A stretch of DNA of 53,005 nt from an uncultured Truepera sp. (GTDB taxonomy: Bacteria > Deinococcota > Deinococci > Deinococcales > Trueperaceae), in the NCBI GenBank assembly GCA_902806425.1, contig CADCWP010000215.1, positions 1-53,005 on the forward strand, read 5' to 3'. The position numbers were made by a program, and so were the translations under genes. The notes under the pieces are model-generated. The model was not told the origin of the DNA. It saw only the letters and a program-made list of their open reading frames with translations, and did not search any database. Of the stretch, positions 23,187 through 40,157 are shown one piece after another. Each line of letters begins with the position of its first letter. The stretch's first letter is position 1.

Positions 23187-23777
23187 ATGATCGAACACCC
23201 GCTCGTGCTCGAAGGGGAGAGGGTGAGGCTCGAGCCCCTACTCCCGGCGCACATTCCTCCCCTACTGGCGATCTCTAAGGCTGACCCGGAGACCTACCGC
23301 TACACCTCGACCCCGACGACCGACGCCGAGGCCGAGGCGTATTTTGCAAAGGCGTTCGGGGAGCGTAAGGCCGGGACGGCCTATCCGTTTGTGCTGCTTG
23401 TGGGCGGTGACGTTGTCGGAACGAGCCGCTACGCCGATCTCAGATCGGCGCACCGGAGCTGTGAGCTGGGCTTTACTTGGCTCGCGCCGCGGGTTCAGGG
23501 AACAGGCGTAAACGCCGAGAGCAAATATCTGCTGCTCTGCCACGCGTTCGAGGTGCTCGACTTTTTGCGCGTCTACTTCTATACGGACGCTCGCAACGTG
23601 CGCTCGCAGCGCGCGATTCGCAAACTGGGCGCGGCCTACGAGGGAACGTTGCGCGCCGAGCGGGTGATGAAAGACGGTTATATAAGGAACACGATGGTCT
23701 TCTCGGTGATCCATACCGAGTGGCCGGAGGTGAAGCGGACGCTGGAGGCGCAGCTCGGCTACGCGCGCCCGGTCTAG
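23187..23777 (+). CDS. GNAT family N-acetyltransferase (RimJ/RimL-like)
   Basis: LEGERVRLEPL, CELGFTWLAPRVQGTGVNAESKYLLL, RSQRAIRKLGAAYEG; start chosen at MIEHPL. Confidence 0.88.
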   Translation: MIEHPLVLEGERVRLEPLLPAHIPPLLAISKADPETYRYTSTPTTDAEAEAYFAKAFGERKAGTAYPFVLLVGGDVVGTSRYADLRSAHRSCELGFTWLAPRVQGTGVNAESKYLLLCHAFEVLDFLRVYFYTDARNVRSQRAIRKLGAAYEGTLRAERVMKDGYIRNTMVFSVIHTEWPEVKRTLEAQLGYARPV

Positions 23778-25114
23778 GAGCCGCGTTCAATACGGACGGG
23801 CAAGCCGCCTTTGGGGTGCAGCGTGTTCCCGGCTTCCTGGAGCGTCCCCTCCCAAGCCGGGGTGAGGCGGTAGTCGCGCAGCAGCAGGGCCAGCCCAAAC
23901 TTGATGACGCCCGTAGCGAGGCCCGAGCCGATGCAGTAGCGCGCGCCGTTGCCGAAAGGCAAGTAGGCGTTTGGGGGCGGCGCGTGAAGCCATCTCTCGG
24001 GGTCGAAGGAGAGCGGCTCCGGGTACGACGCGCTCTGGCGGTGCGTCGCGTAGATCGAGAGCGCTACGCGCTGACCTTTGGGAATGTGGAGACCCGCGAA
24101 CTCGAGGTCCCGCGTCGCCACCCGCAAGGCGGCGGGCGCGGGCGGATAGAGGCGCAGCGTCTCCTTGACCACGCGCTCCAGGTAGGGAAGACGGGCGAGC
24201 GCCCCGTACTCGAGCCTCTCCAAACCCATGACCTCCTCCCGAAGCCGCGCCAGCATGTCCGGATGACGCAGGAGCGCGTAGACCGCCCAGACGAGGGCCG
24301 CGCTCGTCGTCTCGAACCCCGCCGACACGAGGCTCAGCGCCTGGTCGCGCACCTCCGCGTCGGAGAGCCCGGCGCCCGCCTCGTCCTCGGCGGCGAGCAG
24401 CAGCGACATCACCCCACCGTCTTCGCCCCCCTGCAATTGACCCTTGGGTGCATCTTCGCGCCGCCGCTGAATCTCGCGATAGAGAACCTCGTCCGCCTGC
24501 CGCCGGGCCTGCACGAGGCGCGCCCAAGGGCTGCCGGGGAAGGGAACCTTAAACTCTTGAAAGGCGAAGGGAAGGTTTGCAAAGGCCATCATCCGCGCGA
24601 CGTACCCGGTCAGCTCGGGGTTGCGCTTTAAGGTCGCCGCGCCCAGAAGCACCTCGCAGATGGTTTCTAACACGCAGGGCCGTACGGCGGTATAGAGGTT
24701 TACGGCCCCACCCGCCGAAGCGCGACTCAGCTCGGTGAAAAGCGCCCCCAAACGCCGCTCCACGACCTCAAACGCTCCCTCTAAACGCCCCTTGTGAAAA
24801 GCGGGTTGCACCAGCCGCCGCCGCCGCAGGTGCTCGGGTTCGTCGCTGGTGATAAGCGCCGCGTCGCCGCCGATAGGCCGCAGAAACCGGTAGGCGGGTC
24901 CGAGCACAAGGTGCGGCGCGGCCTCCTGAGTCACGAAATGGGCCGCTTCGGGGCCGACCAACCAGACAAAATGCAGAGGACCGACGCCGAAAGCGAAGGC
25001 CGAACCGTAGCGTTCGTGAAGCCCCCACACCGCCGCGTTGATGTCGCGGCCCGCGGCGCGCATGGCGTGCAGGTGCTCGAGCCCCCGTGGTGCCGGAACC
25101 GCTAAAGGCTCCAA
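23774..25114 (-). CDS. Cytochrome P450
   Basis: I-helix AGFETTSAALVW, ExxR KETLRLYPP, PERW, heme loop FGNGARYCIG; TTG start. Confidence 0.96.
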   Translation of the reverse strand: MEPLAVPAPRGLEHLHAMRAAGRDINAAVWGLHERYGSAFAFGVGPLHFVWLVGPEAAHFVTQEAAPHLVLGPAYRFLRPIGGDAALITSDEPEHLRRRRLVQPAFHKGRLEGAFEVVERRLGALFTELSRASAGGAVNLYTAVRPCVLETICEVLLGAATLKRNPELTGYVARMMAFANLPFAFQEFKVPFPGSPWARLVQARRQADEVLYREIQRRREDAPKGQLQGGEDGGVMSLLLAAEDEAGAGLSDAEVRDQALSLVSAGFETTSAALVWAVYALLRHPDMLARLREEVMGLERLEYGALARLPYLERVVKETLRLYPPAPAALRVATRDLEFAGLHIPKGQRVALSIYATHRQSASYPEPLSFDPERWLHAPPPNAYLPFGNGARYCIGSGLATGVIKFGLALLLRDYRLTPAWEGTLQEAGNTLHPKGGLPVRIERGS

Positions 25115-25115
25115 C

Positions 25116-25808
25116 CTAGCGAACGCCGTGCAAAATCTCCTCGAGGCCCTCGGGGTCTCGTATCAACACCTCTTTGGGGCGGGTGCTGATCACGTGCTCT
25201 TCTTCAAGCGCCTTTAGCGCCCGGGTGACGGTCTCGCGGCTTGTTCCGGCCAAGCTGGCAAGTTCCTGGTGCGTCAGGCGCAAAATCGCGCTGCCCTCTT
25301 CGTTAAAGTCGATGAGGCCGTTCCAGTAAAGCCGCAAGATCACATACGCGACCCGGCCCTGCGCGTCTTTATAGGACAAAATCTGCGCCTCGTCGACCAT
25401 CCCGCGCAGCCGCTGTGAAAGCGTGTTGGCGACGTTTAGGCTGACGCTCGGGTAATCCTTAAGCAGGCGCTGGAAGTCGTCTTTGAAAAGCAGGTAGACG
25501 AGCGTCTCACGGATGGCGAGGGCCGTTGCGCTGCGCCCTTGCTCACCCAAAAGGGCCATCTCGCCGAAAAACTCCGGGGGTTTAAGGATAGCGAGCGTTT
25601 TTTCGTGACCCTCGAGGTCGATCTTAAAGAGCTTGACCATGCCGCTGGAAAGCACATATAAAACTTCGCCCTGGTCACCTTCCTGAAAAAAAACCGTATC
25701 GGCGGCGAAGGTGCGCGGTTGTAGGGCCTGCGCGGCGATCTCTAACGCCCGCTGCGGCGCGCCGTGAAAAAGGGGGACTTGGGCCAGGAAACGCTCGAGT
25801 TCAGCCAT
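25116..25808 (-). CDS. Crp/Fnr family transcriptional regulator
   Basis: cNMP-binding domain (FFGEMALLGEQGRSATALA) plus HTH (LTHQELASLAGTSRETVTRALKAL). Confidence 0.95.
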   Translation of the reverse strand: MAELERFLAQVPLFHGAPQRALEIAAQALQPRTFAADTVFFQEGDQGEVLYVLSSGMVKLFKIDLEGHEKTLAILKPPEFFGEMALLGEQGRSATALAIRETLVYLLFKDDFQRLLKDYPSVSLNVANTLSQRLRGMVDEAQILSYKDAQGRVAYVILRLYWNGLIDFNEEGSAILRLTHQELASLAGTSRETVTRALKALEEEHVISTRPKEVLIRDPEGLEEILHGVR

Positions 25809-31475: not shown

Positions 31476-33215
31476 CTAACGGCCCAGTATAAAGACCATG
31501 CTGGCAGGGAGGTTGTAGATGCGGGGCGATTCGTAACGGCCCTCTTCGGTATTTGCGTAGGCGGTCCGGGTAGCGAGCTCAAGGCGGCCCGAAGCGTCCC
31601 ACGGGGCCATGTGCGAGTAGGGATACGAGACGAAGTAGTAAAGGTCGCCGTACTGGCCGCCGCCGCCGCAGATAGTATTCGTCAGGTAGCTGCCGTCGGT
31701 TTTCTTAAGGACGGTATAGGCCATGGTGTTGGCTACACGGGTCATAAAGGTCCGGTCGAAAAGGCTCGAGTCCAGGGTGGCGAGTTCGGCAAACGCCTGC
31801 ATCGTATAGCGGATGTAGACGGTCGGCTGGCACCCTAGAGCCGGTCTGTTGTTGAGATCGTTGATGCGGTGATCCCACGTGTAGCCCGTGCCGTTCGGGG
31901 TCGAGATCGTCCTCATATGAGACCTGACTACCCCCGCCATGCGCGTAGCCTCGGTGTAGTAGCTGCTGTCGCCCGTCAGCTTGTACATGAAAAAGTGGTA
32001 GCGGATAAACTGCGCGTAGGGGTGCATCAGATCTTTTTGCATAAAGGGAAAACCCGAAGGTTTGTTGTTGCGCCCACGCCACTTTTCCTCGAAGTGGTTT
32101 TTGAGGTAGTTCGTCCAGTACGACGCGCTCGAGCTGTAGCCTGCTTGCTTAAGCGTGTATGCTACCGACGCGACCATCGAGTGAGCGAGAATCTCGTCCA
32201 TAACGTGCTCGTCGGTACCGAGGTACTGTTCCGAGGAAGAATCGGTGCGTTGCCGGTAGACCCAGTTGAGGTAGCCGTCACCGTTGGAGTCGCTGAGGTT
32301 GCCCTTAGCGATGTTCATGAGCCTATCGAGCTGCCGGACGAGGGTGCGGTCACCAGTCTCGCGGTAGGCGAGGACAAGGCTGGTGGCGTAGTTGTTGAAG
32401 TTGCGTGCGAGCGAGAAGGTGTCGCCGTTGGCCTGCCTGTCGGGATTCATCCAAGCGTTGTAGGAGTCGTACTTGGGGTTGGTGATGGTCGCGACCAAGC
32501 GTGAGTTCCAAGTGGCCAAAGTGCCGCTGCTTCCGCTGCCACTACCCCCATCATCACCATCGTCCCCGTCGTCCCCATCATCGCCGTCGTCGCCATCATC
32601 CGTCTCGTACCAGACGTAAAGCGTCGGCGCGACCTTGGTACCACCACCATCGACTGACATCGCCTCCCGGTCGTTGTTGGTGTTGCCGCCTACGATTAGG
32701 GCTAGGGCGTTGCCGCTTCTCCAACCGCTGCGGCTGACGACCTCCTGAACCACGTTCGAGAGGTCGCTCGACTGCGCCACTACCCCTTCGCTCCATGATG
32801 GCGCGCTCCAGTTCGCCGCCGCCGAAGTTAAGCTCCGTGAACTTAAGTTCTGGTTTGAGCTAGAGAACTGCGCCGCCGAGTCGGCGTCGTGCGCTCTAAA
32901 GGTGAGCGTAGTGTCGCCCGAACTCGTCGCGGCTGCCATCAGCCGCACGTACGCTTTGGTTATCTTGGCTCCCTGGGGGACCCCGACGCCAGTAAAGCGC
33001 AGGCCAACTCTTTGACCGTCCGCCGAGAAGTTCAACCTGTTCGCGTCGTCGCCGCTGACCATGCTGCCCGACGCGCTCTCCTCAGAGTCGTCGGCCCCGC
33101 TGCGAATCCAGGTTCGCACCGAACCCGTAGCAGCAGGGGTGAGTTCAGGGACTTCGGTGCTGCTGCACGCGGCGAGCAGCGCCAGTAAGCCGAACATAAA
33201 GCTTCTTGGTTTCAT
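31476..33215 (-). CDS. Secreted lipoprotein: DNRLRE-like N-terminal domain, DDG-repeat linker, C-terminal helical toroid-like domain
   Basis: MKPRSFMFGLLALLAACSS lipobox; SSDLSNVVQEVVSRSGWRSGNALALIVGG...APTLYVWYE; (DDG)6; helical-repeat-like C-terminus. Start chosen at 33215. Confidence 0.75.
   Translation of the reverse strand: MKPRSFMFGLLALLAACSSTEVPELTPAATGSVRTWIRSGADDSEESASGSMVSGDDANRLNFSADGQRVGLRFTGVGVPQGAKITKAYVRLMAAATSSGDTTLTFRAHDADSAAQFSSSNQNLSSRSLTSAAANWSAPSWSEGVVAQSSDLSNVVQEVVSRSGWRSGNALALIVGGNTNNDREAMSVDGGGTKVAPTLYVWYETDDGDDGDDGDDGDDGDDGGSGSGSSGTLATWNSRLVATITNPKYDSYNAWMNPDRQANGDTFSLARNFNNYATSLVLAYRETGDRTLVRQLDRLMNIAKGNLSDSNGDGYLNWVYRQRTDSSSEQYLGTDEHVMDEILAHSMVASVAYTLKQAGYSSSASYWTNYLKNHFEEKWRGRNNKPSGFPFMQKDLMHPYAQFIRYHFFMYKLTGDSSYYTEATRMAGVVRSHMRTISTPNGTGYTWDHRINDLNNRPALGCQPTVYIRYTMQAFAELATLDSSLFDRTFMTRVANTMAYTVLKKTDGSYLTNTICGGGGQYGDLYYFVSYPYSHMAPWDASGRLELATRTAYANTEEGRYESPRIYNLPASMVFILGR
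32547..32600 (-). repeat. 9-bp tandem repeat encoding (Asp-Asp-Gly)x6
   Basis: Six consecutive GAY-GAY-GGN units read on the minus strand. Confidence 0.9.
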
Positions 33216-33538
33216 TTTTCCTCCACCCCGGGTTGACGTTGAGCCCATAGAGAAGTTCTCCACGGGTTTGGCTGCACAGTGCGAGGCTGAGTTCAAAACG
33301 TCCTCGGTCGGTTGCGCTACTGGCTCCACCTGTTCCAAGCGCCCAAATATGGAAAACAGGTTTCGTCGCCTCCGAGGGGCGGGGTAACCCCTCTACGCCT
33401 TGAATCTTAATCTAGGCTTAATGTTTAACTTTGTGAAATATTTCGTTTTGCGTCCATAGAGTGAAAAACTATAAACGTCTTTTGAGCGCGCGATGCGGCG
33501 AGACGCTTCCAGAGGGGGTGGGCACGATACGATAAGGT

Positions 33539-35077
33539 GTGCCGGATTTTGATGTAATTACAGTTGGGGCGGGGCACAATGCGCTCATTACAAGCGCGTA
33601 TCTCGCGCAAGCAGGCTACAAGGTGGGCGTCTTTGAGCGGCGTGATGTCGTGGGCGGGGCGGTGTCGACCAAGGAGATCGTACCGGGTTACCAGTTCGAC
33701 CTGGGCGGTAGCGCGCATATCTTAATTCGCCTGACGCCGATCATCGAAGAATTGGGGTTGGAGCGCTACGGTCTCGAGTATATCGACATCGACCCCCTTT
33801 TTTTTGCACCGTACAGGGACGGCGAAAGCGTTTTTATCCACCGCAGCGAACAGAAGACCGTAGAGGGGCTCGAGCGCAGCTACCCCGGTGAGGGGGAGGC
33901 TTACAGGCGCTTTATGGACGACTGGCGGCCCTTCGGCAAGGCCGTCAAAGAGCTTTTTTTAAGCACGCCGAGCCCCCTAAACCTGGGCAAAAAGATGATC
34001 TTCGGCAAGGCCATCAAGGGTGACTGGAAAAAAGCGCTGCCCAAAATTCTCAAACCTTACGGCGAGGTAGTCGACAGCTATTTCAAGGAGGAGCGGGTCA
34101 AAACGCCGCTGGTCTGGATGGCCGCGCAGTCCGGCCCACCGCCGTCCGAGCCGTTCTCGTCGCCGTTCGTGCTCTGGCAGCCGCTGTACCACGAGAGCGG
34201 TATGGCGCGGCCCAAGGGCGGCTCGGGGATGCTCACGCAGGCGCTTGGGCGGCACATTGAGGCGCACGGTGGGCAGCTGTTCGTGAACGCTTCAGTCGAA
34301 AAGATTTTGGTCGAAGGGACGCGGGCGACCGGGGTGCAGGTCGGGGGTCAGGTCTACACGGCGCGTTCGGTTGTGGCGGGCACGCACGCCCTCGAGACGT
34401 TCGGCAAACTTCTCCCCGAAGCGCACCGCCCCGAGGGAAGCCGTCACATGCGTGTCGGGAACGGCTTCGGCGCGATTTTGCGGCTGGCCCTAAACGCGCC
34501 GGTACGCTACAGCGCGCACCCCGGCGACGCGGCGCGGCGGGCTTTGGGCCTGATCTGCCGCGACCGGGCGCAGCTGAGCGCCGCGTACGGCGACTTTTTG
34601 GCCGGTCGTCCGGCGGCGGACCCGCCCATCGTAGCGATGAGTTTTAGCGCTGTAGACGACACGCTGGCCCCGCCCGGTGGCGAGGTGCTGTGGCTCTGGG
34701 CGCAGTATTTTCCCTATGAGCTGGCCCATGGCGCGCGCTGGGCCGACATCGAGGACGAGGTAGCCGAGCGCATCCTGGACGCCTACGAGGTCTACGCGCC
34801 GGGTACCAAGGCGAAGGTCGTCGGCAAGCTGTTTCAGCATCCGGAGTGGCTCGAGCGTCACCTGGGCCTCTACCGCGGCAACGTGATGCACCTCGAGATG
34901 AGCCTGGACCAGATGTTCGCGCTGCGACCCTTTTTGGGTATGGCCGAATATAAAACGCACCTCAAAGGCCTCTACCTGACCGGCGCGAGCACGCATCCCG
35001 GTGGGGGCATCATGGGCGCGTCGGGGCGCAACGCGGCGCGGGTCGTCCTAAAAGACTTAGAGAAGAAAAAGGTGTGA
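33539..35077 (+). CDS. crtO: Carotene ketolase, CrtO type (CrtI superfamily)
   Basis: 512 aa; [79 protein letters not shown] closely resemble remembered Deinococcus CrtO; GTG start. Confidence 0.9.
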
Positions 35078-35080
35078 GCG

Positions 35081-35494
35081 GTGGCCGAATACGAGGTTAG
35101 AGCGCAAGTCCCTACAGTAGACGACTATATCCGCGTCCGCCTAGCTGCCGGCCTCAGCCGTAAAACTGAAGAGGCCGCGACGATTGGGCTCAAAGATTCG
35201 CTCTTTGCCGTCACAATTTTTAATGAGAATGAACCCGTAGGAATAGGCCGCATTATAGGCGACGGCGGGTGCTTCTTTGAGGTAGTAGACATAGCCGTCT
35301 TACCTAAGCATCAGCAAAGGGGTGTCGGTACCCTTATCATGGACGTGCTGATAGCTTACGTGAACGAACACGCCCCTAAAAGCGCCTACGTAAGCCTCAT
35401 GGCCGATTACGGCACCCCGACATTTTACGAGAAGTTTGGCTTCGCCAAAGCCGAACTCCCCAAAGCTGCCGGGATGGTCCTGCGCGTCCTGTGA
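35081..35494 (+). CDS. GNAT family N-acetyltransferase
   Basis: 137 aa; [24 protein letters not shown] acetyl-CoA-binding motif; 4-bp overlap with next CDS. Confidence 0.9.
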
Positions 35495-36951
35495 CCTACC
35501 TTCAGTTTCACCTCATCTTTACGCTGCCGCCGCTTTTACCGCTCGCGTTTCTGACGTGGCGGGCGTCCCAGCAGGGTCGGGTGCCGCGGGTGGCGCTGTT
35601 AGCGCTCCTTATCCATGTGCTGCTGGCGCTCGTCTATACGACGCCGTGGGACAACTTTCTCATCGCGCGCGGCGTGTGGGGCTACGGGCAGGAGCGGGTG
35701 CTGTTCACGCTCGGCTGGGTACCGTTTGAGGAGTATCTGTTCTTCGTGATCCAGACGCTTCTGACCGGCCTCTGGGTGCTGCTGCTACAGCGGCGGCTAA
35801 GCGGAGTAGAGAACGATGTAGGGCAAGGTGGCGCGCGCCCCTCGCTCCGGCTGCGCGTCGTCGGCGCACTTTTCTGGCTGGGACTTGCCGCGGCGGGGGT
35901 GTTGGCCCTCGGCACGGCAAAAGGTACCTATTTCGGCCTTATCGCGGCGTGGGCCGCGCCGGTGCTGGCGCTCCAATGGGGGTTCGGCGGCGACCTGCTC
36001 GTAAGGCGCTGGCGCGTCCTGCTGCCGGGGTTCGCGGTGCCGACGCTGCACTTATGGCTCGCTGACCGCTCCGCGCTGGGGGCTGGTATCTGGTGGATTT
36101 CGCCGGAGCTTTCGTCCGGTCTGCACGTCTTCGGGTTGCCACTCGAAGAGGCGCTTTTTTTTCTGCTGACGAACCTGCTGGTGGTGTTCGGCATGATTTT
36201 GGCCCTCGAGCCGCGAGGGGTCCTACGCTTGCAGGAGCTGCGCCGGGTCAGCTGGTGGCGCGCGGTGCTCGCGCTCTGGGCACTGTCGATGGTACCGACG
36301 CCGCTTTTTCCACAGCGTTTTGCCGTGTTCGCCTACCTAAGCACGGGCCTGTTGGCGCTCGGGGTGCTGGGGTACGCGTACTCGCGTTACGGCCGCCGCG
36401 CGTGGGGACTTTTCGCCGTATCGTTCGGTTTCGGGCTGCTGGTGGAGTGGCTGGGACACACCACCGGGGTTCCCTTTGGTTCTTACGACTACACTGCGCC
36501 GGGGCCACGGCTCTTGGGGGTACCGCTGCTTGTGCCGCTGGGTTGGTTTGCGTTTTCGCTAATTGCGCTCGCTCTCTCGCCGCTCGGCAGCAAACGCTGG
36601 CTCGCGCCGCTCGCGCTGGTCGCGTGGGATGTCGGGCTTGATCCACTGATGGTGTCGCAGGGGTTCTGGGCGTTTGAAGGTGGCGCGTACTACGGGATTC
36701 CGCTGAGCAACTTTCTCGGCTGGGGGGTGTCGGGCGCGGTTTTGGTGGCGCTGCTGTTGTGGCTCGAGCCGCGCCTCGCCCAAGGCACCTCCGCCGAGAT
36801 GCGGTCGGTCTTCTGGGCGCAGGCGTTTTTGATGGGCGTCGGGTTGCTGGTTTTCGGCCTGCCGTGGGCGGCGCTCTGCGCGTTTCTCGCCATGAGCTTG
36901 GTGGGAACTGTGGCGGAGCGGGTACCGGGTTTGAAGCGCCAACTCGGATGA
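35491..36951 (+). CDS. Carotenoid biosynthesis fusion: CrtYcd-type lycopene cyclase domains plus CruF/DUF422 hydratase-like domain
   Basis: PWDNFLIARGVWGYGQERVLFTLGWVPFEEYLFFVIQT (CrtYc-like), WISPELSSGLHVFGLPLEEALFFLLTNLLVVFG (CrtYd-like), EWLGHTTGVPFGSYDYTAPGPRLLGVPLLVPLGWFAF...GLDPLMV (CruF-like). Confidence 0.85.
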   Translation: MTYLQFHLIFTLPPLLPLAFLTWRASQQGRVPRVALLALLIHVLLALVYTTPWDNFLIARGVWGYGQERVLFTLGWVPFEEYLFFVIQTLLTGLWVLLLQRRLSGVENDVGQGGARPSLRLRVVGALFWLGLAAAGVLALGTAKGTYFGLIAAWAAPVLALQWGFGGDLLVRRWRVLLPGFAVPTLHLWLADRSALGAGIWWISPELSSGLHVFGLPLEEALFFLLTNLLVVFGMILALEPRGVLRLQELRRVSWWRAVLALWALSMVPTPLFPQRFAVFAYLSTGLLALGVLGYAYSRYGRRAWGLFAVSFGFGLLVEWLGHTTGVPFGSYDYTAPGPRLLGVPLLVPLGWFAFSLIALALSPLGSKRWLAPLALVAWDVGLDPLMVSQGFWAFEGGAYYGIPLSNFLGWGVSGAVLVALLLWLEPRLAQGTSAEMRSVFWAQAFLMGVGLLVFGLPWAALCAFLAMSLVGTVAERVPGLKRQLG

Positions 36952-37661
36952 GCATGGGTTGGGTAAACGTCTACCTGACCGGGTTGCGGGCGCGCACCCT
37001 CGAGCGGGTCGTCGCGCTCATCGCCTGGGCGCTGCCGTGGGTAATCCGCCGTTCGCTGCGGCGCGGGTTGCACGGCGTCTACACGCGGGGCCCGTGGGAC
37101 GCGCTGCCGAAGAGTGGCGTGCTGCTGGCCGCGAACCATCACGCCTGGTGGGACCCGTATCTGGCGTGGCTGATCGGTCGGAGGTTGGGACGGCCTCTCA
37201 GCGGGCTTATGCTCTCCCAAACGGTGGCGCGCTTTCCCTTTTTTAGGGCGCATGGAGCCCTGGCGACTTATGAAGTGCGCGAAGCGCTCAGGCGGCTCTC
37301 GCGCGGTGAGCTGCTCATCATCTTCCCGGAGGGCGGCGTCCGGGTGCCGGGCAAGGTAGCGGGGCTAGAGCCCGGTCTGGCCTTCCTCGCTGAGCGGGCG
37401 CGGATGCCGGTCCACCCGGTCGCGCTGCGCGTCGCCATGCGCGGCGCGCAGCACCCGGAGGCGTTTTTGCTGTTGGGCGACCCCGTAGCCCCGCCCGACG
37501 TGCAGGGGGCACTTAACACCCTGCTTGCCAGGCTGGAGACGGAGCTCTCCGCCGCCGATCCCGAAGCGCCGCTCCCCGGTTTTACCGTCTGGAGCGGCGG
37601 CGCGCGGAGCACGCACGAAAGGGCCGCTTGGCTGGGTAAACTGTTGCGCGGGGAGATCTGA
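36948..37661 (+). CDS. 1-acyl-sn-glycerol-3-phosphate acyltransferase-like (PlsC family)
   Basis: NHHAWWD (NHx4D), LLIIFPEGGVR; ATGA overlap with preceding stop; ORF track start 36759 judged too early. Confidence 0.85.
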   Translation: MSMGWVNVYLTGLRARTLERVVALIAWALPWVIRRSLRRGLHGVYTRGPWDALPKSGVLLAANHHAWWDPYLAWLIGRRLGRPLSGLMLSQTVARFPFFRAHGALATYEVREALRRLSRGELLIIFPEGGVRVPGKVAGLEPGLAFLAERARMPVHPVALRVAMRGAQHPEAFLLLGDPVAPPDVQGALNTLLARLETELSAADPEAPLPGFTVWSGGARSTHERAAWLGKLLRGEI

Positions 37662-38731
37662 TGATCCTGTGGTGGCTGGCGACACTTTTCGTGACGGTGC
37701 AACTCGTCGTGCTGGTGACGAATACCTTTACCTTTCCGGTGCTCGTTCCAGCGAGAACCCCCCGCACCCGGCGGCGGGTATCGCTGCTGATTCCTGCCCG
37801 TAACGAAGCGCTCAACCTACCCGAGACACTGCCGTTGCTGCTGGCCCAAGGTGCGGACGAGCTTATCGTGCTTGACGACGGCTCGACCGACGCGACGCCG
37901 GAGATTCTGGCGGGGTTTCGCGGTCTTCGCTGCGTGCAGGGGGAACCGTTGCCGGAGGGGTGGGTCGGCAAAAACTGGGCGTGCCATCAGCTCGCTGGGG
38001 TCGCTACGGGGGACGTGCTCGTCTTTACCGACGCCGATGTGTACTGGGGGCCGGGGGCCTTGACGGCGCTTTTGGCGTTTGCCGAACGCAGCGACGCGGT
38101 CTACGCCAGCGTCTGGCCGCGTCAGCGTACCGAGACCCTCTTTGAGCGTCTGGCCGTGCCGGTCATCGACACCATCTTGTTGGGACTATTGCCCTATCCC
38201 TTAGTCAAGAACACCACAGACGCCCTGTTCTCGGCGGGAAACGGGCAATGCATGATGTGGACGCGAAGTGCTTACCGGCAAGTTGGTGGGCACGCGGCGT
38301 TTCGGAGTGAGGTTTTAGAGGACGTGCGGATGGGTCAGGCGGCTAAAGGCCGGGGCCTGAAGCTGGTGTTGGCCCTCGGGGGTGACCTCCTCAGCACCCG
38401 GATGTACCGGACGCCGGGTGAGCTCTTGGAGGGGTTTTCTAAAAACATTTTGGCGGCGCACGGGGGCCGGTTGCCGCTTATGTTCTCGGTCCTGCTCAGT
38501 ACCCTAACCTACACGCTCTCGTGGGTCTTGGCCTTTGTAGACCCACTCTGGCTCGTTCCGGCGGCGCTGGGAATGTTTCAGCGGGCGCTGACCGCCTACA
38601 AAACGCACCGGAGCCCGCTCGAGGGGTTTTTACAGCCGTTCACCGCCTACCCGCTTCTGCGCGTTGCGCTGCGGGCACTTTCGCGTAAGGGCTACCGCTG
38701 GAAGGGCCGCAGCTACGGGGCGCATGACTAA
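37661..38731 (+). CDS. Family 2 glycosyltransferase (carotenoid-associated, CruC/CrtQ-like)
   Basis: VSLLIPARNEALNLPETL, LIVLDDGSTDAT, GKNWACHQL, TDADV, C-terminal TM helices. Confidence 0.85.
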   Translation: MILWWLATLFVTVQLVVLVTNTFTFPVLVPARTPRTRRRVSLLIPARNEALNLPETLPLLLAQGADELIVLDDGSTDATPEILAGFRGLRCVQGEPLPEGWVGKNWACHQLAGVATGDVLVFTDADVYWGPGALTALLAFAERSDAVYASVWPRQRTETLFERLAVPVIDTILLGLLPYPLVKNTTDALFSAGNGQCMMWTRSAYRQVGGHAAFRSEVLEDVRMGQAAKGRGLKLVLALGGDLLSTRMYRTPGELLEGFSKNILAAHGGRLPLMFSVLLSTLTYTLSWVLAFVDPLWLVPAALGMFQRALTAYKTHRSPLEGFLQPFTAYPLLRVALRALSRKGYRWKGRSYGAHD

Positions 38732-40157
38732 AGCCGCCAACACCGCGCTGGTCTTGGGGGGCGGGTTCGCGGGCTTGTCGGCGGCGCTCAGTTTGGCGCT
38801 GGACGGCGTACAGGTCACGCTTTTGGAACAGCTGGGCGAGGTCGGCGGCAAAGCGGGCGAGTTCGCGCAAGAGGGGTTCCGTTTCGACTTGGGGCCGAGC
38901 GTGTGGACGCTGCCGGAACTTGTCACCGACCTGTTCAGGCAGGCAGGGGAGACGCCGCCGGAGTTCGTACCGCTCTCGCCCCTGTGCCGCTATCTCTACC
39001 CGTCCGGGCGGGTGTGGGATGTGTCGCTCGACCCGGAAAAGACGACCGCGCAGCTGAGTGAGCAGGAGGCGTCCGTCTACCTACGTCTGGTTGCAGAGGC
39101 GCGCACGCTCTACGAGGCGGCGGCACCGACGTTTTTGTTCGGGCAGTCGCCGGGTCTTAAAGAACTGATGCGCTACGGAATGGCGGGCGGCCTGAGAGCG
39201 CATCCCGGCAAACGCCTGCCTGCGCTGCTCCGACACTTCGGCGCGGCGGGCGACCTGGAGACGTTTTTTCTGCGCTTTGCGACCTACTTCGGGGCCGACC
39301 CGTACCGCGCTCCGGCGGTGCTGCACAACATCGCCTGGGTCGAGTTGGGCAAGGGCGTGTTCTACCCGGTGGGCGGCATTAAAGGGGTCGTGCGGCAGCT
39401 CCGGGAACTGGCCCAAAGGCTGGGCGTCAAAATCTGTACGGGCGTGACGGTCGAGCGGCTGCGTACCTCTGCGGGCCGTGTGACCCAGGTGGAGACGGAC
39501 GCGGGCGTGTTCTCGGCCGAGGTGGTCGTCTCGAGCCTCGACCTCATCCGCACCTACAGGTTGTTAGGCCGCAAGGCAACCGCGGAGGGGCTCGAGCCCT
39601 CACTCTCAGGGTTTGTTTTGCTTCTGGGCCTAGACGGTAAAACGCCCGGTCTAACACACCACAACATCTCTTTTCCAAACGATTACCGCGCCGAGTTCGC
39701 GGCGGTAGGGCGTGGCGAGCTGCCCGCTGACCCGACGCTCTACGTATCGATCAGCAGCAGGACCGAAACGGGTGACGCGCCGCCGGGGTGCGAGAACTGG
39801 TTTGTGCTGGCGAACGCGCCCGCTCTGTCCGAAAAGAGACCGATGGACTGGGACGTGACAGGTCCGCGTTACGCCGAACACCTGCTGGGCGTTCTCGCGC
39901 GGCGCGGTCTCGACGTGCGCGGCCGTGTGCGGGTGCAGCAGATGTTTACACCGGCCTATTTAGGCAGGCTTGCGCACCGGGGGGCGATCTACGGTGCCGC
40001 GCCGCACTCGCTGCTCCAGACGCTCCGGCCCAAGCAGACCGTGCGCGGCGTGCGGAACCTGGTGCTGGCGGGCGGGACAGTGCATCCGGGCGGTGGGATT
40101 CCGCTGGCGCTGCTGTCGGGTAAGCACGCGGCGGAACTAGCCGTTACCCGGCTCTAA
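38724..40157 (+). CDS. Phytoene desaturase family oxidoreductase (CrtI/CrtD-like)
   Basis: LVLGGGFAGLSAALSLALDGVQVTLLEQLGEVGGKAG, FDLGPSVWTLPEL, GGTVHPGGGIPLALLSGKHAA; ATG overlaps end of GT2 gene. Confidence 0.87.
   Translation: MTKAANTALVLGGGFAGLSAALSLALDGVQVTLLEQLGEVGGKAGEFAQEGFRFDLGPSVWTLPELVTDLFRQAGETPPEFVPLSPLCRYLYPSGRVWDVSLDPEKTTAQLSEQEASVYLRLVAEARTLYEAAAPTFLFGQSPGLKELMRYGMAGGLRAHPGKRLPALLRHFGAAGDLETFFLRFATYFGADPYRAPAVLHNIAWVELGKGVFYPVGGIKGVVRQLRELAQRLGVKICTGVTVERLRTSAGRVTQVETDAGVFSAEVVVSSLDLIRTYRLLGRKATAEGLEPSLSGFVLLLGLDGKTPGLTHHNISFPNDYRAEFAAVGRGELPADPTLYVSISSRTETGDAPPGCENWFVLANAPALSEKRPMDWDVTGPRYAEHLLGVLARRGLDVRGRVRVQQMFTPAYLGRLAHRGAIYGAAPHSLLQTLRPKQTVRGVRNLVLAGGTVHPGGGIPLALLSGKHAAELAVTRL

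Follow-up and report, generated by a model that had tools for sequence, protein, structure and literature searches.

The Deinococcota carotenoid glycoside-ester cluster in a Truepera genome and its predicted salinixanthin-type product

What pigment would be made by a tightly packed run of carotenoid genes in an uncultured Truepera sp., and is that run a self-contained finishing unit or part of a larger and more widespread cluster? The genes in question occupy positions 33539-40157 of contig CADCWP010000215.1 (assembly GCA_902806425.1), whose 53,005 nucleotides were analyzed as a whole and are referred to here as the window. In light of the comparisons presented below, five of the six genes are the Truepera copy of a known carotenoid glycoside-ester cluster, found widely in Deinococcota (the Deinococcus-Thermus phylum), and not a new system, and with a probability of roughly 77% the operon would make a red, glycosylated and acylated keto-carotenoid of the salinixanthin type through a pathway predicted from its genes.

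All six genes described in an earlier note on this DNA were recovered as open reading frames (ORFs) on the + strand, separated by a 3-base gap or overlapping by one to eight bases, and the family names given there hold at the family level in Pfam and NCBIfam. The run opens with crtO (33539-35077), which encodes a 512-residue CrtO-type carotene ketolase, an FAD/NAD-binding member of the CrtI superfamily, and continues after a 3-base gap, as read in the DNA, with a 137-residue GNAT-family N-acetyltransferase (35081-35494; Pfam GNAT). The latter overlaps by four bases (GTGA) a gene for a 486-residue fusion protein (35491-36951), in which a CrtYc-CrtYd-type lycopene cyclase (residues ~1-240) precedes a CruF-type carotenoid 1',2'-hydratase (residues ~290-470) whose Caroten_synth domain (PF04240) covers residues 291-468 (36361-36894). 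A second 4-base overlap (ATGA) leads to a 237-residue PlsC-type acyltransferase with a proposed CruD-like role (36948-37661; PF01553, 45.9 bits), a 1-base overlap (TGATG) to a 356-residue family-2 glycosyltransferase (GT2) with a proposed CruC-like role (37661-38731; PF00535, 79 bits), and an 8-base overlap (ATGACTAA) to crtD (38724-40157), the product of which is a 477-residue CrtD-like 1'-hydroxycarotenoid 3',4'-desaturase.

This arrangement was compared with 19 further Trueperaceae loci (L035-L053). The order crtO, cyclase/CruF, PlsC, GT2, crtD, without the GNAT gene, is kept through crtD in 18 of these 19 neighborhoods, counting L049, where crtO is cut by the contig end, while at the remaining locus (L039) it is followed until the contig ends within PlsC. 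Because the five-gene order recurs so widely, the clustering is beyond chance. The phytoene synthase gene crtB is found in the same neighborhood at every locus except L049, usually directly upstream of crtO and, in Truepera radiovictrix, with two ORFs in between. In the window genome crtO is preceded by an unrelated gene, and, as the earlier note had observed, both phytoene synthase and the primary desaturase are missing from the window: crtB lies on contig C375, beside ispG and a homolog of one of the two T. radiovictrix spacer ORFs, and crtI is present as a fragment of 245 residues on contig C143. Furthermore, the SDR gene found beyond ispG in T. radiovictrix sits downstream of crtD in the window. 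A rearrangement is the preferred account of how crtB became separated from crtO, an assembly error being less likely. The description of the operon as a dedicated late-modification module thus applies to a local state and not to the cluster in general, since most relatives have crtB immediately before crtO and it is here that this link is broken.

The same gene order extends beyond the family to Meiothermus ruber and Deinococcus deserti, with a variant in Thermus, so that the window follows the Deinococcota glycoside-ester cluster with the GNAT gene as its sole addition. In M. ruber (L167) crtO, CruF, PlsC, GT2 and crtD follow one another with crtB upstream, but CruF lacks the cyclase half and is preceded by a separate gene of 397 codons, which looks like a flavoprotein-type lycopene cyclase; a P450 gene comes after crtD, and the product is a 2-one. 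M. ruber produces an acylated 1'-glucosyl keto-carotenoid as its pigment (PMC3035268, PMC4384146). D. deserti plasmid 2 (L181; NC_012529.1, DEIDE_RS15430 to RS15405) carries crtO, a fused cyclase-CruF gene (482 aa), PlsC, GT2 and crtD in the order of the window, differing in a DoxX gene between PlsC and GT2, in adjacent crtI and crtB genes on the opposite strand, and in the absence of GNAT; the cluster of Deinococcus radiodurans was left out of the comparison. The Thermus thermozeaxanthin cluster (L172-L175 and L187, the last of the megaplasmid type) shares the order CrtYcd cyclase, PlsC (CruD), GT2 (CruC), but is without CruF, crtO and CrtD, has a P450 gene (in the CrtZ role) before the cyclase, and includes crtB and crtI. 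Thermus pigments are thermozeaxanthins, acylated zeaxanthin glucosides, which have been attributed to genes named CruC and CruD at this locus (PMC4021367). Homology to the M. ruber and Thermus clusters lends good support to the predicted product class, as both organisms make acylated carotenoid glucosides.

The same comparison reveals how differently the cyclase domain is deployed. The cyclase-CruF fusion spans Trueperaceae and recurs in the f2 lineage (L160, L161) as well as in D. deserti. Two Trueperaceae genomes extend it further, as the PlsC acyltransferase is encoded together with the lycopene cyclase and the CruF hydratase in a single ORF of 713 residues in T. radiovictrix (L035 7166-9307, minus strand) and of 725 residues in genome G027 (L051 2050-4227). 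In Thermus the cyclase half stands alone. A domain that is fused, missing or solitary depending on the genus amounts to clear domain shuffling within a pigment pathway.

Protein assignments are made at the family level, as several NCBIfam equivalog cut-offs are not reached. The cyclase part of the window fusion matches TIGR03462 in two stretches (121.7 bits, cut-off 39.4) and retains a PxEE motif in each half (P78-E80-E81 and P217-E219-E220), both of which are conserved without change in 12 relatives. The hydratase part matches PF04240 (121.8 bits, cut-off 25), with the CruF domain scoring below the bisanhydrobacterioruberin-hydratase equivalog cut-offs. CrtO is 87% identical to its T. radiovictrix ortholog and reaches 339 bits against BCarotKetCrtO (cut-off 1000). 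The crtD product passes the crtI_fam model (314.7 bits, cut-off 238.1), scores 277 bits against the CrtD model (cut-off 580), and is closest among solved structures to the γ-carotene desaturase 4rep (248 bits vs. 162 for the phytoene dehydrogenase 4dgk). In a tree of 41 CrtI-superfamily proteins, which includes no biochemically proven CrtD or CrtO, CrtO groups with the other cluster CrtO proteins (100/100 support), apart from CrtI and CrtD; the crtD product groups with the cluster CrtD-like proteins (95/95 for the wider group, 100/100 for its Trueperaceae-Meiothermus-D. deserti part) and away from CrtI of Thermus, D. deserti and Trueperaceae. In an alignment of 12 cluster orthologs the PlsC motifs HX4D (HHAWWD) and FPEG are intact, and a separate GT2 alignment shows LDDGS, TDADV and LEDVR to be intact as well.

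From the genes, intact motifs, kept order and co-occurrence, all of which were directly seen, we infer each catalytic step, its regiochemistry, the sugar and the acyl chain. Lycopene would be supplied by crtB (C375) and crtI (fragment, C143), and the CrtYcd part of the fusion would cyclize one lycopene end to give γ-carotene. The CruF part would then hydrate C-1',2' at the open end, CrtD would desaturate C-3',4', and CrtO would introduce a keto group on the ring, C-4 being the most likely site; finally, GT2 would glycosylate the 1'-hydroxyl and PlsC would acylate the sugar with a branched fatty acid. As there is no counterpart in the Trueperaceae clusters of the P450 found in those of Meiothermus and Thermus, no ring hydroxylation is predicted, and the pathway would end in a membrane pigment of the salinixanthin type that lacks both a ring hydroxyl and a 2'-hydroxyl, namely 1'-(acyl-glucosyloxy)-4-keto-3',4'-didehydro-1',2'-dihydro-γ-carotene. 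A P450 gene elsewhere in the window (23774-25114) was considered as a ring hydroxylase and is not claimed as one, since its product shares just 28-39% identity with the P450s in the clusters of Meiothermus, the f2 lineages and Thermus. On the - strand it lies directly after the gene for a Crp-family regulator (both within 23774-25808).

Hydration, 3',4'-desaturation and ketolation of γ-carotene give a computed formula of C40H54O2, that of the 2-deoxydeinoxanthin type (PMC11306087), and a hexoside ester with C15:0 would be C61H92O8 (952.679, computed). In T. radiovictrix the main fatty acid is anteiso C15:0 (PMC3072082), and C61H92O8 has been measured for non-hydroxylated salinixanthin in Rhodothermus marinus (PMC5822342). 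The cluster thus supplies a concrete formula to seek in the cultured type strain T. radiovictrix, which is red and for which the 2011 genome paper states that there are no data on pigments (PMC3072082).

Three alternative readings bear on individual genes of the cluster. GT2 and PlsC might make membrane glycolipids, leaving free 2-deoxydeinoxanthin as the carotenoid end product. The closest NCBIfam model to GT2 is indeed the hopanoid-associated HpnB, PlsC belongs to a generic phospholipid acyltransferase family, complex glycolipids occur in T. radiovictrix (PMC3072082), and Deinococcus is described as producing unglycosylated deinoxanthin (PMC11306087). The HpnB match, however, reaches only 128.5 of the required 379 bits, and a hopanoid role for GT2 was rejected on this score and because the window genome yielded no hopene cyclase; a place for these two genes in unrelated lipid pathways, which the earlier note had named as a refutation of its reading, is thus not borne out. 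It is also important to note that every one of the 28 Trueperaceae genomes with cyclase-CruF gives a GT2 profile score of 185-572 bits (as relatives, they do not count as 28 independent observations), that the profile finds nothing over about 80 bits in any of the 11 without it, and that in T. radiovictrix and G027 PlsC and the cyclase-hydratase form one fused protein. Together with the GT2 and PlsC orthologs in the carotenoid clusters of M. ruber and Thermus, these data uphold carotenoid tailoring with glycosylation and acylation as originally proposed, and make the glycolipid reading improbable. The GNAT gene, for its part, was taken in the earlier note as an operon member and could be a working part of it, for instance by acetylating the sugar instead of or besides PlsC, as its position inside the operon, with a 3-base gap on one side and a 4-base overlap on the other, might suggest. 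Yet a homolog is missing from all 19 other Trueperaceae neighborhoods, where crtO and CruF either overlap or are separated by a short non-coding stretch (176 bases in T. radiovictrix), and from T. radiovictrix as a whole at an E value of 1e-5; copies in a few other genomes of the family share no more than 36% identity with it and lie away from the cluster. Its GC content is lower, as is that at third codon positions (60% vs. 77-83% for the five module genes). With that absence and such distant copies, GNAT was discarded as a pathway enzyme, a role that is now scarcely credible, and the gene is best read as an insertion specific to the window genome and outside the conserved module.

The position of the ketone is a finer matter, as the CrtO sequence does not tell C-4 from C-2 and the assignment as a 4-ketolase is not settled by it. 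The same cluster could place the ketone at C-2 and desaturate the ring at C-3,4 as in M. ruber, yielding a 1'-(acylglucosyl)-3,4,3',4'-tetradehydro-caroten-2-one; the M. ruber CrtO homolog, 60% identical to that of the window, is a crtO-type ketolase proposed to produce the 2-one (PMC4384146). Nevertheless, the window CrtO is about as close to that of D. deserti (61% identity), deinoxanthin being a 4-ketone (PMC11306087), and the P450 gene that follows crtD in the M. ruber and f2-lineage clusters, and could explain the C-2 oxygen, has no equivalent in those of Trueperaceae. A C-2 ketone is thus rather unlikely, if less so than either alternative above.

Several points weigh against the acylated, glycosylated 4-keto product as predicted here. 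All protein roles rest on sequence; CrtO, CruF and CrtD fall below their NCBIfam equivalog cut-offs; GT2 and PlsC were compared with orthologs that lack proven activity; the tie of the M. ruber CrtO homolog to a 2-one renders C-4 uncertain; and the window belongs to an incomplete metagenome-assembled genome (MAG; 3.84 Mb, 376 contigs, 91.9% completeness). In addition, the GT2 and PlsC genes are shared by D. deserti although the Deinococcus pigment is described as unglycosylated, and the product can accordingly not be set apart from unglycosylated deinoxanthin by gene content, as the earlier note had done. A search of the available literature on glycosylated deinoxanthin, D. deserti pigment glycosylation and Deinococcus genes beside cruF returned nothing useful. 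Glycoside-ester genes common to Truepera, Meiothermus, Thermus and at least one Deinococcus raise the question of why the Deinococcus pigment has been so described.

The predicted pigment shares its product class, a 4-keto acylglucosylated monocyclic carotenoid, with the salinixanthin pathway of Salinibacter ruber and R. marinus, where salinixanthin is also found in hydroxylated form and where, in R. marinus, no CruF or clear CrtD has been recognized and CruC lies outside the cluster (PMC5822342). Since xanthorhodopsin uses salinixanthin as its antenna (PMC5822342, PMC3587595), we looked for rhodopsin genes throughout the phylum. That a salinixanthin-like Truepera pigment acts as the antenna of a microbial rhodopsin, with the enzymes channeled through the cyclase-hydratase-acyltransferase fusion in T. 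radiovictrix, would be an improbable extension. The sole rhodopsin found in the window genome (G000:C4:10443-11108, L188) is cyanobacterial-halorhodopsin-like, resembling cyanobacterial chloride pumps (structures 6k6i, 6xl3, 7zou), and no Blh gene was found in the MAG, so an antenna role in the window species is not supported. T. radiovictrix has four rhodopsin genes. One of the four, closest to sodium pumps (L218 7017-7901; 2443017-2443901), is ~3.4 kb away from crtB, the intervening genes being ispG, the SDR gene and a DJ-1/PfpI-like ORF, and several Thermus genomes have a rhodopsin gene within ~11-19 kb of the cyclase gene.

Two further observations concern the surroundings of the pathway. 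Genome G028, of the Trueperaceae genus g13, has a phytoene synthase and a CrtI-type gene, each matched across stop codons, and is without cyclase-CruF and without a high-scoring GT2; its pathway is possibly decaying. In the window, a c-di-GMP-II riboswitch (33298-33382, - strand; 67.5 bits, gathering threshold 53.5) coincides with the beginning of a divergent gene (31476-33338), whose true start is probably near 33215. The lipoprotein-like product of this gene contains an acidic DDG repeat and matches no Pfam family. The intergenic region carrying this riboswitch also contains the promoter side of crtO.

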